A stretch of DNA of 64,000 bases from Oscillospiraceae bacterium. GTDB lineage: Bacteria > Bacillota > Clostridia > Oscillospirales > Oscillospiraceae. The translations under genes and the position numbers were made by a program. Of this stretch, positions 27,148-64,000 are shown piece by piece; positions within the stretch are counted from its first letter, which is position 1; each line of letters starts with the position of its first letter. The notes under the pieces were generated by a model, which was given only the letters and a program-made list of their open reading frames with translations, made no database searches and was not told the origin of the DNA. The stretch spans positions 116,971-180,970 of the forward strand of contig SVMI01000003.1 in assembly GCA_015067495.1 (NCBI GenBank), written 5' to 3'.

Positions 27148-28022
27148 ACGATTACTTGGTACGCGGAATGACCATGGATGGCTTTGTGAAGGTCGTGGCG
27201 ATCCGCTCTACGAATTTAGTGCGCAGAGGCGCTGAGATACAGAAGACCACTCCCAACGCCACAGCGGCATTTGGGCGGTCTCTGACGGCAGCTTCCATGA
27301 TGGGCAATATGCAGAAGGTGGACAATGGCTCTATGACGCTGCAGATCCGGGGCGGCGGACCTATCGGCACGATCACGGTGGTGTCCGATCCCGAGGGCAA
27401 CGTCCGTGGCTGTGTGACTGAGCCGAATGTGCCGCTGGTGGAGAAATTCCCCGGCAAGCTGGACGTGGGCGCAACGGTCGGTACGGACGGCGCGCTGACG
27501 GTCATCCGTGACCTGCAGATGAAAGAGCCTTATATCGGTCAGGTGCCACTGGTTTCCGGCGAGATCGGCGACGATGTGACCGCCTATTTTGCCCAGAGTG
27601 AACAGACACCCACAGCCTGCGCCCTTGGTGTGCTGGTGGATACGGATTGTTCGGTGAAGGTTGCCGGCGGCTATCTGGTGCAGCTGCTGCCGGGTGCGCC
27701 GGATGAGGTGATCGATGCCGTCGAAAAGGGCATTCAGAGAGCCGGCGCAGTGACCAAGATGCTGGAAGCGGGTCTGACTCCTGAGGAGATCCTCGGTCAG
27801 GTATGCGGTGATCTGGGCGTTGTGTTCATGGAGACTACCGAGGTTTCCTATCGCTGCTACTGCTCCCGCGAGCGTGTGACGTCTGCCTTGATCAGCCTTG
27901 GCAGGGAAGAGCTGACGCAGATCGCGCAGGAGGGAAAGGCATTTCCCGTCGAATGTCAGTTCTGCGATACGGTCTATGAATTTACCCCGGAAGAGGTTCA
28001 GCGGCTGCTGAAAAAAATCTGA
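27144..28022 (+). CDS. hslO: Hsp33 family redox chaperone
   Basis: GSMTLQIRGGGPIGTITVVSD; CYCSRERV...VECQFCDTVYEF (CxC...CxxC). Confidence 0.95.
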   Translation: MNDYLVRGMTMDGFVKVVAIRSTNLVRRGAEIQKTTPNATAAFGRSLTAASMMGNMQKVDNGSMTLQIRGGGPIGTITVVSDPEGNVRGCVTEPNVPLVEKFPGKLDVGATVGTDGALTVIRDLQMKEPYIGQVPLVSGEIGDDVTAYFAQSEQTPTACALGVLVDTDCSVKVAGGYLVQLLPGAPDEVIDAVEKGIQRAGAVTKMLEAGLTPEEILGQVCGDLGVVFMETTEVSYRCYCSRERVTSALISLGREELTQIAQEGKAFPVECQFCDTVYEFTPEEVQRLLKKI

Positions 28023-28097
28023 TCTGAATGGCAAAATGGTGGTTCCTGAGGGCTTTTCATCCCCTGAAAATTTGTTAAAAATTTGCAGGAAAAAAGC

Positions 28098-28126
28098 TTG
28101 ACAAATGCGCCCATTCTGTGTATAAT
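28098..28126 (+). promoter_or_regulatory. Consensus promoter of tRNA cluster
   Basis: TTGACA - 17 bp - TATAAT. Confidence 0.9.
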
Positions 28127-28166
28127 AGTCAACGTCGCTGAGGTGAGAGCTCTGCCGACAAGGTAT

Positions 28167-28242
28167 GGGAGCATAGCTCAGCTGGGAGAGCATCTGCCTT
28201 ACAAGCAGGAGGTCACAGGTTCGAGCCCTGTTGTTCCCACCA
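28167..28242 (+). tRNA. tRNA-Val(TAC)
   Basis: Cloverleaf by eye; anticodon loop cttacaa; CCA encoded. Confidence 0.95.
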
Positions 28243-28249
28243 TTTATAT

Positions 28250-28326
28250 GGCCCGGTGGTGCAGTCGGTTAGCACGCCAGCCTGTCACGCTGGAGGTCGA
28301 CGGTTCGAGTCCGTTCCGGGTCGCCA
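28250..28326 (+). tRNA. tRNA-Asp(GTC)
   Basis: Cloverleaf; anticodon GTC (gccagcctGTCacgctgg); CCA encoded. Confidence 0.95.
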
Positions 28327-28377
28327 TTTATCAATAATGCATCTTGGTGCATGGGGGAGGAAATATTCTCCTCATAT

Positions 28378-28453
28378 GCCTCTGTAGCTCAGTCGGTAGA
28401 GCAGTGGACTGAAAATCCACGTGTCGTTGGTTCGATTCCGACCGGAGGCACCA
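28378..28453 (+). tRNA. tRNA-Phe(GAA)
   Basis: Cloverleaf; gtggactGAAaatccac; CCA encoded. Confidence 0.95.
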
Positions 28454-28476
28454 TGGTTCCCTTTGGGAACCAAGAT

Positions 28477-28552
28477 GCGGGTGTAGCTCATCCGGTAGAG
28501 CGCCACCTTGCCAAGGTGGAGGTAGCGAGTTCGAGCCTCGTCACCCGCTCCA
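28477..28552 (+). tRNA. tRNA-Gly(GCC)
   Basis: Cloverleaf; ccaccttGCCaaggtgg; CCA encoded. Confidence 0.95.
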
Positions 28553-28587
28553 AAAATTAGGAACGCGTTGCGTTCCTAATTTCATAT

Positions 28588-28662
28588 GGTACCGTAGCCA
28601 AGTGGTAAGGCCCCGGTCTGCAAAACCGTTATTCGCCAGTTCAAATCTGGCCGGTACCTCCA
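28588..28662 (+). tRNA. tRNA-Cys(GCA)
   Basis: Cloverleaf; cggtctGCAaaaccg; CCA encoded. Confidence 0.94.
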
Positions 28663-28700
28663 AAACAAAACGCACACCATAAGGTGTGCGTTTTGTTTTG
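28661..28700 (+). terminator. Terminator-like hairpin directly after tRNA-Cys
   Basis: aaaacaaaacgcacacc-ataa-ggtgtgcgttttgtttt. Confidence 0.85.
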
Positions 28701-28717
28701 GAGAAAAACAGGACGGA

Positions 28718-28834
28718 CAGATTTGAAGATCTGAATGCAACAGTCCGGGGGACTGTTGCCGCCGACGGCTGGACGGAGGCGAACCTTAATTTTTGCCTTC
28801 GGCAAAAATGCAAACAAATCTGGCCGGTACCTCC
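28718..28834 (+). repeat. tRNA-tail-associated structured repeat, copy A (inverted T-arm segment + about 80-bp core + duplicated tRNA-Cys 3' end)
   Basis: Core 28733-28814 nearly identical to minus-strand cores at 63562-63640 and 63730-63808; 20-bp caaatctggccggtacctcc repeated at 28642-28661 and 28815-28834. Confidence 0.9.
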
Positions 28835-28837
28835 GTG

Positions 28838-28873
28838 AAAAACGACAAGTTTCAAAAGAAACTTGTCGTTTTT
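28838..28873 (+). terminator. Terminator-like hairpin after the duplicated tRNA-Cys tail
   Basis: aaaaacgacaagtttc-aaaa-gaaacttgtcgttttt. Confidence 0.85.
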
Positions 28874-28876
28874 CAA

Positions 28877-29064
28877 TGATATCCGTTCCTTTCGGAACGG
28901 GTGATATATCTTTGATGTGATATCGCTCTTCGAGCGGTGATATATACCTTCGGCATATGAAGGAACGGATATTATATCGTGCTTGCGAAGCAAGTATATC
29001 ATGCGGCGAATGCCGTATATCATATTGCGTTAGTAATATATCATTCAGAATCCGAAGCAATAAT
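28877..29064. repeat. Array of variable mini-hairpins joined by near-constant GATATATC-type spacers
   Basis: tgatatCCGTTCctttcGGAACGGgtgatatatc...gatatCGCTCttcGAGCGgtgatatata...tatatcatGCGGCgaatGCCGTatatcat. Confidence 0.75.
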
Positions 29065-29152
29065 TATTTTTGCCTTGTGTCAAATGATATCACTTCGCCT
29101 TGCACCCTCGACACTTTTATGTTATTATTTACAAAAAGGAGGGTGATTTTGA

Positions 29153-29524
29153 ATGACAAAAAAAGAATTCTATGATAAGTGGATCGAAACATTTGCAGCA
29201 GATATTCCTGAACAGGACATACAAAAGTATGTAAAGTCTACTGGTAATTTAATTTGGCACATTTTTTCATGGGAATTGTTAGACGAAGGACGATATTTCA
29301 TCGGGGAAAAAGCGAAGGCTGCTTACGATCAGATTGATAAAGAAGGTGCTATTTGCATTGCGTGGTTTGAGGATGAGCATACCAAGGATATCGTTGCTGA
29401 TTTGAATATCGCCGCCGCGTTAGATGACTTTGTTGAAATATATGTTGTTGGAAAGAATTTTGAATGGACGTACATTAAAACCCATGAGAGTATGTGTGGT
29501 CCGTATTTTATGAGTGATAAGTGA
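29153..29524 (+). CDS. DUF4275-like protein
   Basis: NLIWHIFSWELL and overall length; RBS aaaaaggagggtg. Confidence 0.6.
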   Translation: MTKKEFYDKWIETFAADIPEQDIQKYVKSTGNLIWHIFSWELLDEGRYFIGEKAKAAYDQIDKEGAICIAWFEDEHTKDIVADLNIAAALDDFVEIYVVGKNFEWTYIKTHESMCGPYFMSDK

Positions 29525-35939: not shown

Positions 35940-36043
35940 AAATGGATAATTGATAATTGACAATTAAGGTGTTGCCTGCGGCAAAGATTTATAATTTATC
36001 GGCGAAGCCGATACCTAAATTGTCCATTGTACATTGTCCATTT
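35940..36043. repeat. MITE-like imperfect palindromic element
   Basis: aaatggataattgataattgacaatta...aattgtccattgtacattgtccattt with internal hairpin atcggcgaagccgat; reaches the stop codon of the gene ending at 36042. Confidence 0.7.
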
Positions 36044-38333
36044 ATAGCTTTTTGCGGATGATCTTGCCACTGATCGTCTTGGGCAGGCTTTCCTTGAATT
36101 CGACGATTCTCGGGTACTTGTAGGGCGCGGTGCGCTTCTTGACGTAGTCCTGAATCTGCTTTTTCAGCTCGTCTGTACCCTTAAAGTCCTTCACAAGCAC
36201 GATGCTTGCCTTGACCACCTGACCGCGAACCTCGTCAGGAGCAGCGGAAACGCCGCATTCCAGCACGTAAGGCAGCTCCATGATGACGTTTTCGATCTCA
36301 AAGGGTCCGATGCGGTAGCCGGAGGACTTGATGACGTCATCGGCACGACCTACGTACCAGTAGAAGCCGTCTTCGTCCATCCATGCAAGGTCGCCGGTGT
36401 GGTAGAAGCCGTCGCGCCAAGTCTCGGCGGTGACCTCTTCATTGCCCTCGTAGGCATAGGCAAGACCGCAGGGAAGACCGTTCTTGATGTTGATACAGAT
36501 CTCGCCGGTTTCGCCGGGTTCTGCTTCTTCCCCTTCGGCGGTGAGCAGATGCACATCGTAAAGAGGAACGGGCTTGCCCATAGAGCCAAGCTTGTGGGAG
36601 CTGCCGTTGAGGTTGCCGATGATGAGGGTGGACTCGGATTGACCGAAGCCTTCCATAATCGCAAGCCCGGTCGCCTTCTGGAACTGGCGGTAGACCTCGG
36701 GATTCAGGGCTTCGCCGGCGGTGGAGGCATGCTCGATGCTGCTCAGGTCAAAGCGGGAAAGATCCTGCTTGGCAAGCATGCGGTACATGGTGGGCGGTGC
36801 GCAGAAGGTAGTGATCTGATACTTCGCAAACAGGGGCAGGATCTTTTCTGCGTCAAAGCGGTCAAAGTCGTAGACAAAGATGGGTGCTTCGCACAGCCAT
36901 TGTCCGTAGATCTTGCCCCATGAGGACTTTGCCCAGCCGGTGTCGGAGATGGTCAGATGCAGACCGTCAGGGTTGACCCGGTGCCAGTATTTGGCGGTGA
37001 TGAAATGACCCAAGGGATATTTGTAGTTGTGCGCTGCCAGCTTGGGGTAGCCGGAGGTGCCGGATGTAAAGAACATCAGCATGGGGTCTGAGCCACAGGG
37101 AGCATCCTCAGCGCGGGCAAAGTGGCTGGAGTACATGGGGTACTCGTCATTGAAGTCGTGCCAGCCGTCCTTTTTGCCGCCCACGAGGATCTTGTGTTTC
37201 AGATCGGGACACTGGGCGGCGGCTGCATCCACCGCATCGGAAACATCGCCGTCAGCGGTGCAGAGGATGGCACTGATCTTGCCGAACTGGAAGCGGTAGG
37301 TGAAATCTTTTTCCAACAGCTGGTTGGTAGCGGGGATCGCCACGGCACCCAGCTTATGCAGCGCCAGAACACTGAACCAGTACTGATAGTGGCGCTTCAG
37401 CACCAGCATCACCCGGTCGCCCCGCTTGATGCCCATCGCCTTAAAATAGTTGGCGGTACGGGCAGATTCCTTCTTCATATCCTGGAAGGTGAAGCGGCGT
37501 TCTGTTCCGTCCTCTGCAAGGTGGAGCATCGCCAGCTTTTCAGGCTGGGTTCTGCCAAGCTCGTCCACAATGTCAAATGCAAAGTTGAACTGTTCCTCAC
37601 CCTTGAAGGAGATCTCCTTCAAAAGACCGTCCTCGACCTTGCGATCGATAAACTTGCGGTAAATGCGCTTCTTCTTGTCCGGCTCGCGGCGCTTGACATC
37701 GGGAACGGCAACGGTAGCTGCCTGTTCGTCCTCACGGGCGGCAGAGTTGCTCAGCACGATGGCGTAGAAGGCGCAATCCTCGCCCTGCACGGCGATCATG
37801 CCGTGGGGGATAGAGGAGTCGTAATAAATACAGTCGCCGGGATTCAGGATCTCAGACTTGCCGCCGATCTGGATCTTCATGTGACCGCGGATGACGATGT
37901 CACATTCCTGACCCTCGTGGCTGGTCAGCTCGATCTGCTCGCTTTCAGCACCCTCACGATAGCCAAGCTCCATATAAAGGGGCAGGGCAATACGGTTGCG
38001 GAAGCCGGCAGCCAGGTTGTAGCCGATCATGTGATGGGCTTCCTCGATCTTTTGACCCTCGCCCTTACGCGTCAGCGCATAGGTGCGCAGCTTCGGGCTG
38101 TGACCTTCCAGAAGGTCGGACATATCGACACCGAAGACCAGCGCGCAGCGGTACAGAAAGGCGATGTTCAGATCCTTCTGACCTGCCTCACAAAGGCGGT
38201 ATTCCTCCACCGACAAGCCTGTGCGGGCGGCGACCTCTTCTTCAGAGAAGCCGGAAACCTCACGAAGCTCCCGGATGCGGCTCGCCATTTCCTTGATCTT
38301 GTATGTAATTTCGGTCAGATTGTCGTTTCTCAT
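36042..38333 (-). CDS. XRE HTH - cupin - AMP-binding (acyl-CoA synthetase) fusion protein, under Val T-box
   Basis: HTH IRELREVSGFSEEEVAARTGLS; cupin YYDSSIPHGMIAVQG; ANL MLMFFTSGTSGYPKLAAHN, GYRIGPFEIENVIMELPYV. Confidence 0.92.
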   Translation of the reverse strand: MRNDNLTEITYKIKEMASRIRELREVSGFSEEEVAARTGLSVEEYRLCEAGQKDLNIAFLYRCALVFGVDMSDLLEGHSPKLRTYALTRKGEGQKIEEAHHMIGYNLAAGFRNRIALPLYMELGYREGAESEQIELTSHEGQECDIVIRGHMKIQIGGKSEILNPGDCIYYDSSIPHGMIAVQGEDCAFYAIVLSNSAAREDEQAATVAVPDVKRREPDKKKRIYRKFIDRKVEDGLLKEISFKGEEQFNFAFDIVDELGRTQPEKLAMLHLAEDGTERRFTFQDMKKESARTANYFKAMGIKRGDRVMLVLKRHYQYWFSVLALHKLGAVAIPATNQLLEKDFTYRFQFGKISAILCTADGDVSDAVDAAAAQCPDLKHKILVGGKKDGWHDFNDEYPMYSSHFARAEDAPCGSDPMLMFFTSGTSGYPKLAAHNYKYPLGHFITAKYWHRVNPDGLHLTISDTGWAKSSWGKIYGQWLCEAPIFVYDFDRFDAEKILPLFAKYQITTFCAPPTMYRMLAKQDLSRFDLSSIEHASTAGEALNPEVYRQFQKATGLAIMEGFGQSESTLIIGNLNGSSHKLGSMGKPVPLYDVHLLTAEGEEAEPGETGEICINIKNGLPCGLAYAYEGNEEVTAETWRDGFYHTGDLAWMDEDGFYWYVGRADDVIKSSGYRIGPFEIENVIMELPYVLECGVSAAPDEVRGQVVKASIVLVKDFKGTDELKKQIQDYVKKRTAPYKYPRIVEFKESLPKTISGKIIRKKL

Positions 38334-38353
38334 AGATGCTCCTTCACGGGATT

Positions 38354-38617
38354 AAAAAACAGCCCGTCTCAAAGATTGATCCTTTGAGACGAGCTGAGTA
38401 TCAACCCGCGGTACCACTCAAATTGCATCTGCTTTCGCAGATACCACTCATGGGCAGCTTGCCCGCAGCACTGACGCAGCTGGCGCGGGAGAGGTCTAAT
38501 AGCTTTCGCGTTCTTCTCTCCGGCTCGGGAGCGACAGACCGGCTGCATCCACCGTGGCTTGCACCAACCGCCACTTCTCTTGGGTGGGTCTTGCAGAAGA
38601 TCCTCTCCGTCAAAGCC
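38354..38617 (-). promoter_or_regulatory. T-box riboswitch, specifier GTC (Val) at 38533-38535
   Basis: AGAGAAGTGGCGGTTGGTGCAAGCC Stem I distal loop; TGTCGCTCCCGAGCC specifier loop; GAGTGGTACCGCGGG T-box (38404-38418); terminator GCCCGTCTCAAAG/CTTTGAGACG + T-run. Confidence 0.92.
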
Positions 38618-38628
38618 TTTTCTCAAAA

Positions 38629-38657
38629 ATCATATCACTTTATTGTGTAATTGTCAA
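38629..38657 (-). promoter_or_regulatory. Promoter of Val T-box unit
   Basis: TTGACA - 17 bp - TATGAT on minus strand. Confidence 0.85.
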
Positions 38658-38661
38658 CAAA

Positions 38662-40935
38662 TTATAGCTTATTTCTCATGATCTTACCGCTGATGGTTTT
38701 GGGCAGCTCGTCACGGAAAACAACGATACGGGGGTACTTGTAGGGCGCGGTGTGGGTCTTGACGTAGTTCTGGATCTCCTTCTTCAGTTCCTCGGTGCCT
38801 TCTGTACCGGGAACGAGAACGATGCTCGCCTTGACCACCTGACCTCTGACCTCGTCGGGAGCGGCGGAAACACCGCACTCCAGAACGTAAGGCAGCTCCA
38901 TGATCGTACTCTCGATCTCGAAGGGTCCGATGCGGTAGCCGGAGGACTTGATCACGTCATCGGCTCTGCCCACATACCAGTAGTAGCCGTCCTCATCCCG
39001 CCATGCAACATCGCCGGTGTGATACATACCGTCGTGCCAGACGGAGTCGGTGGCTTCCTGATTGCGGTAGTAGCCCAGATACACGCCGCAGGTGGGAGCG
39101 GGATCGGTGTGGATGACGATCTCACCGTTGACGCCGTCAGCCACGCTCTTTCCGTCGCTGTCTACAATATCGATGCCATAGCCGGGAATGGGCTTGCCCA
39201 TAGCACCGGGCTTGATGGCTGTACCGTACAGATTTGCGATACCGAGGGTCATTTCTGTCTGACCGAAGCCCTCGTGGATGCGAAGACCCGTTGCCTTTTC
39301 AAACTGATAGAAGACCTCGGGGTTCAGTGCCTCGCCCGCAGTTGTGGCATGGTGGATAGAGGAAAGATCAAACCGGGAAAGATCCTGCTTGATCAGCATC
39401 CGATACATGGTAGGCGGCGCGCAGAAGGTGGTGATGTTGTACTTTGCAAACATGGGCAGGATCTTCTCTGCGTCAAATCGGTCAAAGTCATAAACAAACA
39501 CACTGCCTTCGCACAGCCACTGACCGTAGAGCTTGCCCCACAGAGCTTTGCCCCAGCCGGTTTCGGAGATGGTAAAGTGCAGACCGTCCTTTTCCACCAG
39601 ATGCCAGTACTTGGCGGTCACATAGTGACCCAGCGCGTATTTGTAAGAATGCATTGCCATCTTGGGATAGCCGGTGGTGCCGGAGGTGAAGAGCATCAGC
39701 ATGGGATCATCGCCGCAAGGAGCATCTTCAGTACGGAGATACCGGCGGCTGAAGAGACAGTATTCTTCATTGAAATCGTGCCAGCCTTCTCTCTGACCGC
39801 CTACAAGCACCTTGGTCAGGGTCAATCCGGCGGACTTTTCAGCCAGCTCTACCTGATGGGCGGTCTCGCCGTCTGCGGTACACAGGATCGCGGAAACGCC
39901 GCCGGCTTCAAAGCGGTAAACGAAGTCGTGTTCCTTCAGCTGATTGGTGGCGGGGATGGCGATGGCACCCAGCTTGTGCAGACCGAGGATCGCATACCAG
40001 AATTGATAGTGGCGCTTCAGCACCAGCATCACCCGGTCGCCCCGCTTGATGCCGAGAGATTTGAAGTAATTGGCACTCTGACTGGAAGCGTCCTTCATGT
40101 CCTTGAAGGTGAAACGGCGCTCGGTCATGTCGTCAGCAATGTGGATCATTGCCAGCTTGTCGGGATCCTTGCGGGCGATGGCATCGACGGTGTCGAAGGC
40201 AAAGTTGTAACGCTCAGTGTTGGCGAAGTTGATGCCGGTCATGACACCGCTGTCATCCTCGCTGCCCCAGACGAACTCATTGCACAGCAGCTTCTCGTCC
40301 TGCACGCGCTTTGCTTTGGCGGTGGGATGATGGAGAGCCGTGTCGGTTTTGTCGCCTGCCATGATCATGGACAGGAACACACAGTCGCTGCCGTCGATGG
40401 CGATCATGCCATGGGGAGTAGAGGACTGGTAAAAAATGCTGTCGCCCTCGTGAAGAACCTCCTCGTGTTCGCCGATGCGGATGCGCATGGAGCCACGGAT
40501 GACAAGGTCAAATTCCTGACCGTCGTGGGTGGAGGTATGGATGGGCTTGTTCTGAAGCTCCTCGGAGTATTCGTAGGTGACCCAGTAGGGGGTAGCCAGC
40601 TTACGGCGGAACATGGCAGCCATGTCCTGAATGGTGATGCCGTCCTCACTGGCCGTGACCATGCCCTTGCCCCGGCGTGTGACAGTATAAGCAGAGAGCT
40701 TGGCGGTGTGACCTTCCAGCAGCTCCGTCAGCTCCAGACCGAAGATCTTGGCACACTTGTGCATAAAGGAAAAAGGCAGATCTGCAGCACCTGCTTCGTA
40801 TTCCATATACAGATCCTGAGAAATCTCGGTCTTCTCAGCCATTTCCTGTATGCTGTAACCCACGATCGCACGCATTTCGCGAATTCGTGCCGCCACATCC
40901 ATTAACTGACTGCCGACTGTGTTGTGATTACTCAT
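38662..40935 (-). CDS. XRE HTH - cupin - AMP-binding (acyl-CoA synthetase) fusion protein, paralog, under Ile T-box
   Basis: Start MSNHNTVGSQLMDVAARIREMRAIVGYSIQEMAEKTEIS; cupin FYQSSTPHGMIAIDG; LMLFTSGTTGYPKMAMHS. Confidence 0.92.
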   Translation of the reverse strand: MSNHNTVGSQLMDVAARIREMRAIVGYSIQEMAEKTEISQDLYMEYEAGAADLPFSFMHKCAKIFGLELTELLEGHTAKLSAYTVTRRGKGMVTASEDGITIQDMAAMFRRKLATPYWVTYEYSEELQNKPIHTSTHDGQEFDLVIRGSMRIRIGEHEEVLHEGDSIFYQSSTPHGMIAIDGSDCVFLSMIMAGDKTDTALHHPTAKAKRVQDEKLLCNEFVWGSEDDSGVMTGINFANTERYNFAFDTVDAIARKDPDKLAMIHIADDMTERRFTFKDMKDASSQSANYFKSLGIKRGDRVMLVLKRHYQFWYAILGLHKLGAIAIPATNQLKEHDFVYRFEAGGVSAILCTADGETAHQVELAEKSAGLTLTKVLVGGQREGWHDFNEEYCLFSRRYLRTEDAPCGDDPMLMLFTSGTTGYPKMAMHSYKYALGHYVTAKYWHLVEKDGLHFTISETGWGKALWGKLYGQWLCEGSVFVYDFDRFDAEKILPMFAKYNITTFCAPPTMYRMLIKQDLSRFDLSSIHHATTAGEALNPEVFYQFEKATGLRIHEGFGQTEMTLGIANLYGTAIKPGAMGKPIPGYGIDIVDSDGKSVADGVNGEIVIHTDPAPTCGVYLGYYRNQEATDSVWHDGMYHTGDVAWRDEDGYYWYVGRADDVIKSSGYRIGPFEIESTIMELPYVLECGVSAAPDEVRGQVVKASIVLVPGTEGTEELKKEIQNYVKTHTAPYKYPRIVVFRDELPKTISGKIMRNKL

Positions 40936-40959
40936 AGCTTTTTCCTTCCTTTCGTAAAT

Positions 40960-41211
40960 AAAAAACGCCTCAAGCAAAAGCTTGAGACGAGCAAAAACAT
41001 ACCCGCGGTACCACTCAAATTGCAACAGCTGTTGCCACCTTCAGACTCCAACAAGTCCTATCCCTTAACGCGGGCAAACGGGAGAAGCCTACTCATGACA
41101 CTTTTCAGTCCTCCGGCTCGGAAGTGATAGGTATGCGGAGCGAAAATTGCCGGTTTTCACCAACCACCGACTCTCTGAAAATTTCCTGCTCCAACCGTCT
41201 TCGTCAAAGCC
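40960..41211 (-). promoter_or_regulatory. T-box riboswitch, specifier ATC (Ile) at 41126-41128
   Basis: CAGAGAGTCGGTGGTTGGTGAAAACCGG; CCTATCACTTCCGAGCC specifier loop; GAGTGGTACCGCGGG (41001-41015); terminator CGTCTCAAGC/GCTTGAGGCG + T-run. Confidence 0.92.
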
Positions 41212-63539: not shown

Positions 63540-63706
63540 TGGCGGAGTGAGAGGGATTTGATTTGCATTTTGCCGTTGGCAAAACTAAGGTTCGCCTCCG
63601 TCAAGCCGTCGGCGGCAACAGTCCCCCGGACTGTTGCATTTAGAACGGTTCAAATCCCTTTTATCATCTTAACAAATAAAGACCGCCGAATGGCGGTCTT
63701 TATTCG
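63539..63706 (-). repeat. tRNA-tail-associated structured repeat, copy B (minus orientation), with tRNA-Ser-like 3' end
   Basis: 168-bp unit; minus strand ...GGGATTTGAAC-core-CAAATCCCTCTCACTCCGCCA; unit ends in aataaagaccgcc/ggcggtctttatt hairpin. Confidence 0.92.
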
Positions 63707-63874
63707 TTGGCGGAGTGAGAGGGATTTGATTTGCATTTTGCCGTTGGCAAAACTAAGGTTCGCCTCCGTCAAGCCGTCGGCGGCAACAGTCCCCCGGACT
63801 GTTGCATTTAGAACGGTTCAAATCCCTTTTATCATCTTAATAAATAAAGACCGCCGAATGGCGGTCTTTATTTG
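63707..63874 (-). repeat. tRNA-tail-associated structured repeat, copy C, tandem duplicate of copy B
   Basis: Same 168-bp unit with two C/T differences by eye. Confidence 0.92.
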
Positions 63875-64000
63875 TTGTGTAAGGACTATAAAAAAGATAT
63901 TTTCGGCCGTTTTGCGTATGACTTCGAACTCTCACAAAACATCTTGAGCTTTCTAATTTAGTGTGTGGTGGTGAGCCACCGTCAATCGATTAGTGGCTGT

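Follow-up and report, generated by a model that had tools for sequence, protein, structure and literature searches.

The window analyzed here comprises 64,000 nucleotides of contig SVMI01000003.1 from an Oscillospiraceae bacterium and contains an operon of five tRNA genes in the order Val-Asp-Phe-Gly-Cys. Upstream of this operon a promoter-like site is present at 28098, which displays a perfect TTGACA-17-TATAAT arrangement. The last gene, tRNA-Cys(GCA), is followed by a small structured element. The features of the site, together with a second occurrence of the element in the window, are as follows:

28588..28662, plus strand: tRNA-Cys(GCA) (ARAGORN; Rfam tRNA, 64 bits)
28642..28661, plus strand: tRNA 3' tail, left copy, from the T-loop to the CC of CCA (repeat comparison)
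28658..28703, plus strand: terminator hairpin t1 with perfect arms of 21 nt (repeat and fold analysis)
28714..28727, plus strand: inverted copy of the tRNA T-arm, CGGACAGATTTGAA, the 5' strand of the closing stem P0
28729..28814, plus strand: type A core with three hairpins (covariance model match, 101.8 bits)
28737..28759, plus strand: hairpin P1, GCAACAGTCC-GGG-GGACTGTTGC
28760..28781, plus strand: hairpin P2, with tandem GA and a GCTGGA loop
28789..28809, plus strand: hairpin P3, ATTTTTGCC-TTC-GGCAAAAAT
28815..28834, plus strand: direct copy of the tRNA-Cys 3' tail from position 56 to CC, the 3' strand of P0 (20/20 identical)
28836..28875, plus strand: terminator hairpin t2 with perfect arms of 18 nt, the start of a Gut-1-bearing unit
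63541..63875, minus strand: the element twice in tandem with a period of 168 bp, its arms being those of tRNA-Ser(GCT); this tRNA-Ser(GCT) lies outside the window (contig end)

The original prediction for this site had described an intact tRNA-Cys with its hairpin, two core hairpins, a perfect 20-bp copy of the tRNA 3' end, a second, different terminator and an insert without coding capacity, and all of these are present. What it had missed are the inverted T-arm copy, hairpin P2, the Gut-1 RNA and an outer GGAG at 28700-28703, which is a partial outer complement. The direct repeat CAAATCTGGCCGGTACCTCC (28642-28661 and 28815-28834) matches at all of its 20 nt, and its two copies are spaced by 173 nt; a perfect repeat of this length less than 200 nt apart is far beyond chance. 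The inverted T-arm copy is 93% complementary to 28640-28653. Folding of the 221-nt stretch yielded -109 kcal/mol compared to -55 ± 4 in shuffled sequences (z = -13.5). Between t1 and t2 no convincing coding sequence was found, the sole open reading frames being antisense read-throughs of the tRNA and the repeat. An Rfam scan of the region revealed only the tRNAs and Gut-1 above the gathering score and gave no match for the core.

The Gut-1 RNA (RF01706; 28874-28948, 66.5 bits in Rfam) lies directly after t2 and is enclosed by a larger inverted repeat (28876-28891 / 28960-28975). The terminator-plus-Gut-1 unit is also found directly behind tRNA-Gln(ctg) (L052), and a similar unit lies behind a tail copy of tRNA-Asp (L034). 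Therefore, an attachment to tRNA tails seems likely for Gut-1 as well. It resembles the element in this position and adjoins it in the window, but it is a repeat of a separate kind, which has a terminator and an inverted repeat of its own. Elsewhere in the window, on the minus strand at 36042-41025, two adjacent paralogous open reading frames of 763 and 787 amino acids are present, which look like fusions of a helix-turn-helix/cupin part with an acyl-CoA synthetase.

Repeats of this kind are known from Escherichia coli. Here, a tRNA-linked repeat (TLR) is defined by 18–19 bp at its 3' end that are identical to the end of the upstream tRNA or 5S gene (PMC8144298). The definition also comprises a place downstream of the RNA gene in a tRNA or rRNA operon, and transcription and processing along with that operon (PMC8144298). 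The element in the window lies downstream of an RNA gene in a tRNA operon, behind the last of five tRNAs, and its 3' end is identical to the tRNA-Cys tail at 20 of 20 positions. One copy is present at tRNA-Cys and two in the Ser array, and three to four are seen in relatives. The Rfam family RtT (RF00391) had no match up to E = 1 in 27500-29500, and it does score on E. coli tyrT and lysV. Because of this, the element is classed among the TLRs on the grounds of definition and anatomy and is not assigned to RtT.

The genome of the window (1.98 Mb, 21 contigs, 97% complete) gave 15 matches to a covariance model of the core, which was built from nine copies, and a DNA search also gave many copies. 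When the 420 nt behind all 44 tRNAs and the tmRNA were inspected, the same layout was found behind Cys, Val(gac), Val(cac), Ser(cga), Ser(gga; partly replaced), Pro(tgg), Pro(cgg), Lys, Gly(gcc), Ala(cgc), Gln(ctg), Leu(tag) and tmRNA. Behind His, Glu, Leu(gag), Ser(gga) and Asp, this place is taken by a second core type, AGGGC...GCCCGTGG. The genome-wide search proposed in the original prediction thus revealed a multi-copy core whose copies elsewhere are flanked by tRNA 3' tails as well; copies that lack such flanks, which were named there as a refuting case, did not turn up in it.

Several of these loci differ in detail. The second core type, read as AGGGC-hairpin-GCCCGTGGGA (L022, L041, L064, L117, L034), carries the same inverted T-arm. 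A third core type behind Pro(ggg) and Met (L053, L157, L132) has a different tRNA junction, since its inverted and direct copies meet at the variable loop (about position 44-50) and not at the T-loop. Behind tRNA-Val(cac) (L035 1578-1997) the tail copy recurs four times in a row, separated by about 45-50 nt of spacer in which GCGCCGCAAGGCGC is found. Behind tRNA-Val(gac) (L012 1-4001) three repeats alternate with cargo-like open reading frames, two copies of one for a small Cys-rich peptide and one of 626 amino acids that is peptidase-like, which gives the impression of cargo acquired between the tail copies.

A census not relying on the core was restricted to tRNAs with at least 120 nt downstream free of another tRNA, and the recurrence of their own tail (score at least 12) within 400 nt was scored. 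It was positive for 13 of 30 tRNAs in the own genome and for 15 of 32 in the relative G054, compared to a background of 0.5–0.9% for the tails of other tRNAs. In two model-negative control genomes, one of them a member of the same genus, no such recurrence was seen (0 of 25 and 0 of 26).

Within the genus, the core model matched 53 of 61 genomes with up to 23 copies each, and at the family level 12 of 151 genomes and 9 of 106 genera; most of the genomes are metagenome assemblies, the best-scoring loci were sampled first and the E-values of the model are rough. The named matches are Oscillospiraceae metagenome assemblies, several labelled from ruminants. Beyond the family the matches are weak, and the search at order level gave five single ones (L272-L276). 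Of these, L273, at a tRNA-Tyr, is clearly a TLR, though its core is a different one. L272 has a core, but with arms that are not of its own tRNA, and L276 seems to be an orphan copy with yet another type of core. L274 and L275 were rejected as members, since they have no adjacent tRNA and look like chance. In L273, which belongs to another family of the order (G284), position 58 is where the tail copy begins, just like in E. coli tyrT, and a Gut-1-like unit lies behind the repeat. A search of viral contigs gave one match at a prophage edge (L278), where the end of a tyrosine integrase is followed by the 3' part of tRNA-Thr(ggt) as attR and then by an intact repeat. This edge accounts for some orphan repeats without a tRNA. 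A motif scan for copies linked to 5S rRNA, as in E. coli rrB, picked up no 5S tail, a result that bears neither way.

An empty site, which the original prediction had proposed to look for between strains, was seen in a relative. In G054 the orthologous Val-Asp-Phe-Gly-Cys operon ends behind Cys with nothing but a plain terminator. At this position in G026, by contrast, the element is present four times in tandem, with units of about 202 bp. Overall, arrays of 2–4 copies with units of about 165–202 bp were observed. Between Arg(tct) and His of G054 a copy lies inside the operon without t1, which indicates that t1 is not obligatory. Only about 11 of 32 copies have a t1 that is more like t2 than the 99% null level allows, so that t1 counts as a putative part of the unit, and the two are near identical at some loci. 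These last loci, together with the tRNA-Val(cac) locus, which is a pure tail array, would fit a simple tandem duplication of tRNA tail and terminator with subsequent drift, but this explanation, like that of an assembly artefact, is hardly credible, since the same core is found behind unrelated tRNAs in independent assemblies of many species and the units differ in the core, not in the flanks.

The arms of the element follow the neighboring tRNA. Among 127 distinct copies from the own genome and its relatives, 85 lie within 250 nt and 99 within 2500 nt of a tRNA or tmRNA; these 99 have it upstream on the same strand, with 30 kinds in all, and the remaining copies belong to arrays, lie at the end of a contig or stand away from their tRNA. 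In 71 copies the direct arm begins at tRNA position 55 or 56, and in 45 it extends to position 76, so that 55/56 to 76 is the commonest extent in the family, and the inverted arm covers about positions 52-54 to 62-70. Against its own tRNA the direct arm scored 16.2 compared to 6.0 ± 0.26 in permutations and the inverted arm 11.8 compared to 6.8 ± 0.20; the own tail was a better match than that of any other tRNA in 83 of 99 copies and, set against the same isoacceptor of other species, was better in 104 cases, tied in 9 and worse in 6, all of these being counts over related and partly tandem copies, hence not independent trials. A covariation of the two P0 arms beyond that of the tRNA was rejected, since only 4 of 870 positions changed jointly. 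Because both arms follow the tRNA and not each other, selection on P0 as a stem gains no support.

For the core hairpins, double changes between copies were observed in 17 of 27 pairs compared to 7.2 in shuffles. Together with the conservation of all three hairpins, this would fit a functional small RNA or a 3' processing element of tRNA operons that is kept by selection on RNA structure. A precedent exists in E. coli, where the RrA/B/F TLRs are transcribed and bind Hfq/CsrA, no other function of TLRs being known (PMC8144298). The composition of the stems, however, points elsewhere. In 111 distinct copies of the element 2681 Watson-Crick, 34 G-T and 19 A-C pairs were counted, whereas the acceptor and T stems of tRNAs from the same genomes gave 998, 99 and 2, respectively. 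G-T pairs thus make up 1.2% in the element compared to 9% in tRNAs and are nearly as rare as A-C. Selection on RNA tolerates G-U pairs; stems that are almost purely Watson-Crick point to hairpin copying at the DNA level. Since the element is also missing from well-assembled relatives and behind an orthologous tRNA-Cys gene, and its tandem copy number is variable, selection for an RNA function appears unlikely as the explanation.

Turnover of the hairpins is seen in a tandem pair of units that lies behind Asp in G054. The two agree in the first 61 letters and, with one exception, in about the last 40, and between these like flanks lie wholly different, near-perfect stems. Furthermore, the P1 loop is mostly GGG in G000 (9 of 15) and GGT in G054 (12 of 14). 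This would suggest that whole hairpins are replaced or corrected in DNA and homogenized within genomes.

A further possibility is a remnant or miniature element integrated by a tyrosine or serine integrase at tRNA 3' ends, with the tails as attL and attR. The original prediction had noted this likeness, and it holds insofar as the insertion is bordered by direct repeats of the 3' part of the tRNA, just as in tRNA-integrated prophages and genomic islands, and an empty Cys site exists in G054. Direct repeats from the T-loop to the tRNA end are a usual site of integrases, and in L278 a real prophage att site adjoins such a repeat. What does not hold is the strict reading with a single att site, which would give one tail sequence; instead, the arms match 30 tRNA or tmRNA kinds, each copy with the tail of its neighbor, and the inverted arm is not predicted by attL/attR. 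The unit of 173 bp has no coding capacity and lacks an integrase gene, in contrast to tRNA-integrated elements, and the att site of the L278 prophage starts in the anticodon region, has a longer repeat and carries an integrase. Tyrosine recombinases were found in 24 of 24 genomes tested; being present everywhere, Phage_integrase is uninformative as a partner, and one element-bearing genome (G151) has a single tyrosine recombinase match. Taken together, integration by an integrase is quite improbable.

Even less probable, and in our view very remote, is a retro-element with reverse transcription primed at the T-loop and an inverted arm that acts like a primer-binding site. The inverted arm starts with TGG in many copies, complementary to the tRNA 3' end as in retroviral primer sites, and the 3' junction is constant at T-loop position 55/56. 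In most copies, however, unrelated bases stand in place of the middle part of the acceptor complement. Among the element-bearing genomes tested, RVT_1 was absent in 9 of 12 (G000, G001, G017, G025, G054, G059, G163, G196, G151) and Y1_Tnp likewise in 9 of 12. A reverse transcriptase or a Y1 transposase is unlikely as general partner, since each is missing from most host genomes tested.

In its most probable reading, the element is a small insertion without coding capacity that sits where a tRNA transcription unit ends. It leaves the tRNA intact and has the order terminator, inverted T-arm of the host tRNA, three-hairpin core and direct copy from position 55/56 to the 3' end. As a tentative proposal, which fits best among the mechanisms considered, it may spread at the DNA level by copying at T-loops with host enzymes. 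Here, an incoming core would receive T-arm sequence copied on the spot on both of its sides, either through hairpin-driven template switching or through recombination of single-stranded DNA; the inverted arm would be the product of a fold-back and the direct copy that of the return to the target. Tandem arrays would grow and shrink by recombination between tail copies. The element would be transcribed only where the polymerase reads through t1, as the last part of the tRNA operon. It would mostly be a tolerated hitch-hiker, any role as a small RNA being secondary.

The element is present or absent at orthologous tRNAs, its arms are local, its arrays have grown in tandem and its hairpins turn over. 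Movement would be one reading of these comparisons, in which, with one genome per species, gain is not always separable from loss, and concerted evolution by gene conversion could mimic mobility. Most probably, the element is a tRNA-linked repeat for which an origin by local copying, transcription by read-through and the status of a hitch-hiker are proposed.

Among known repeats, MITEs and REP/BIME sequences are likewise short, non-coding, rich in hairpins, multi-copy and patchy among relatives. In contrast to these, the element is strictly linked to tRNAs and its arms are copied from the target. The inverted arms required of a MITE are present but host-derived, an autonomous relative was not found, and unlike REP/BIME most host genomes tested have no Y1 (RAYT-type) transposase.

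The closest likeness is to the TLRs of E. coli, which have been known since 1978 with their origin unexplained and occur with 1–5 copies per locus, 22 copies at ten loci in K-12 (PMC8144298). The rr TLRs sit between dual terminators and conserved RrB homologues are confined to Enterobacteriales (PMC8144298). The anatomy is the same in both groups. The E. coli repeats (tyrT/tyrV with the rtT RNA, argQZYV, lysV, rrA/rrB/rrF) also lie behind tRNAs, end in a tail copy of 18–20 nt and form tandem arrays with a period of 170–200 bp, and in lysV and rrnB the core lies between two terminators. Re-reading of the MG1655 loci revealed tail copies from 58/59 to 76 in the Tyr, Arg and Lys TLRs and an inverted T-arm before the core in Tyr (GGGGAAGGAT) and Arg (GGGAGGAT). 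In the argV TLR three hairpins are closed by a stem, and P1 directly adjoins P2, just like in the window. The tyrT repeats are 178 bp apart, and t1 and t2 of lysV are near-identical. Folding of the lysV TLR gave no clear three-hairpin structure, and the inverted match reported there is placed differently.

Both groups differ in the start of the tail copy, which is 58/59 in E. coli and 55/56 in the Oscillospiraceae, and in their cores, between which no sequence similarity was detected. They also differ in extent, since the element is found behind nearly half of the scoreable tRNAs in two genomes and behind tmRNA, compared to ten loci in E. coli K-12 (PMC8144298). As far as the literature found shows, this TLR family is new to Bacillota, and in sequence it is unrelated to the Rfam RtT family. 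This second family, from another phylum, is far richer. Its scores of copies lie behind 30 tRNA kinds, and it offers empty sites, tandem arrays and freely changing hairpins for comparison. By this, features become visible that were hidden by the single E. coli loci, namely the inverted T-arm, the fixed T-loop junction, the ends that follow the local tRNA and the stems that are kept Watson-Crick as if corrected in DNA. How such a repeat gains the tail of its neighbor is now open to comparison and experiment, and a group of gut bacteria with the element behind about half of their tRNA genes represents a large natural data set on the origin of TLRs. It is conceivable, if still rather doubtful, that TLRs of Enterobacteriales and Oscillospiraceae spread by the same transposition-like process, in which the target supplies the ends and the T-arm would be copied once inverted and once direct around the core via host replication or recombination of single-stranded DNA.
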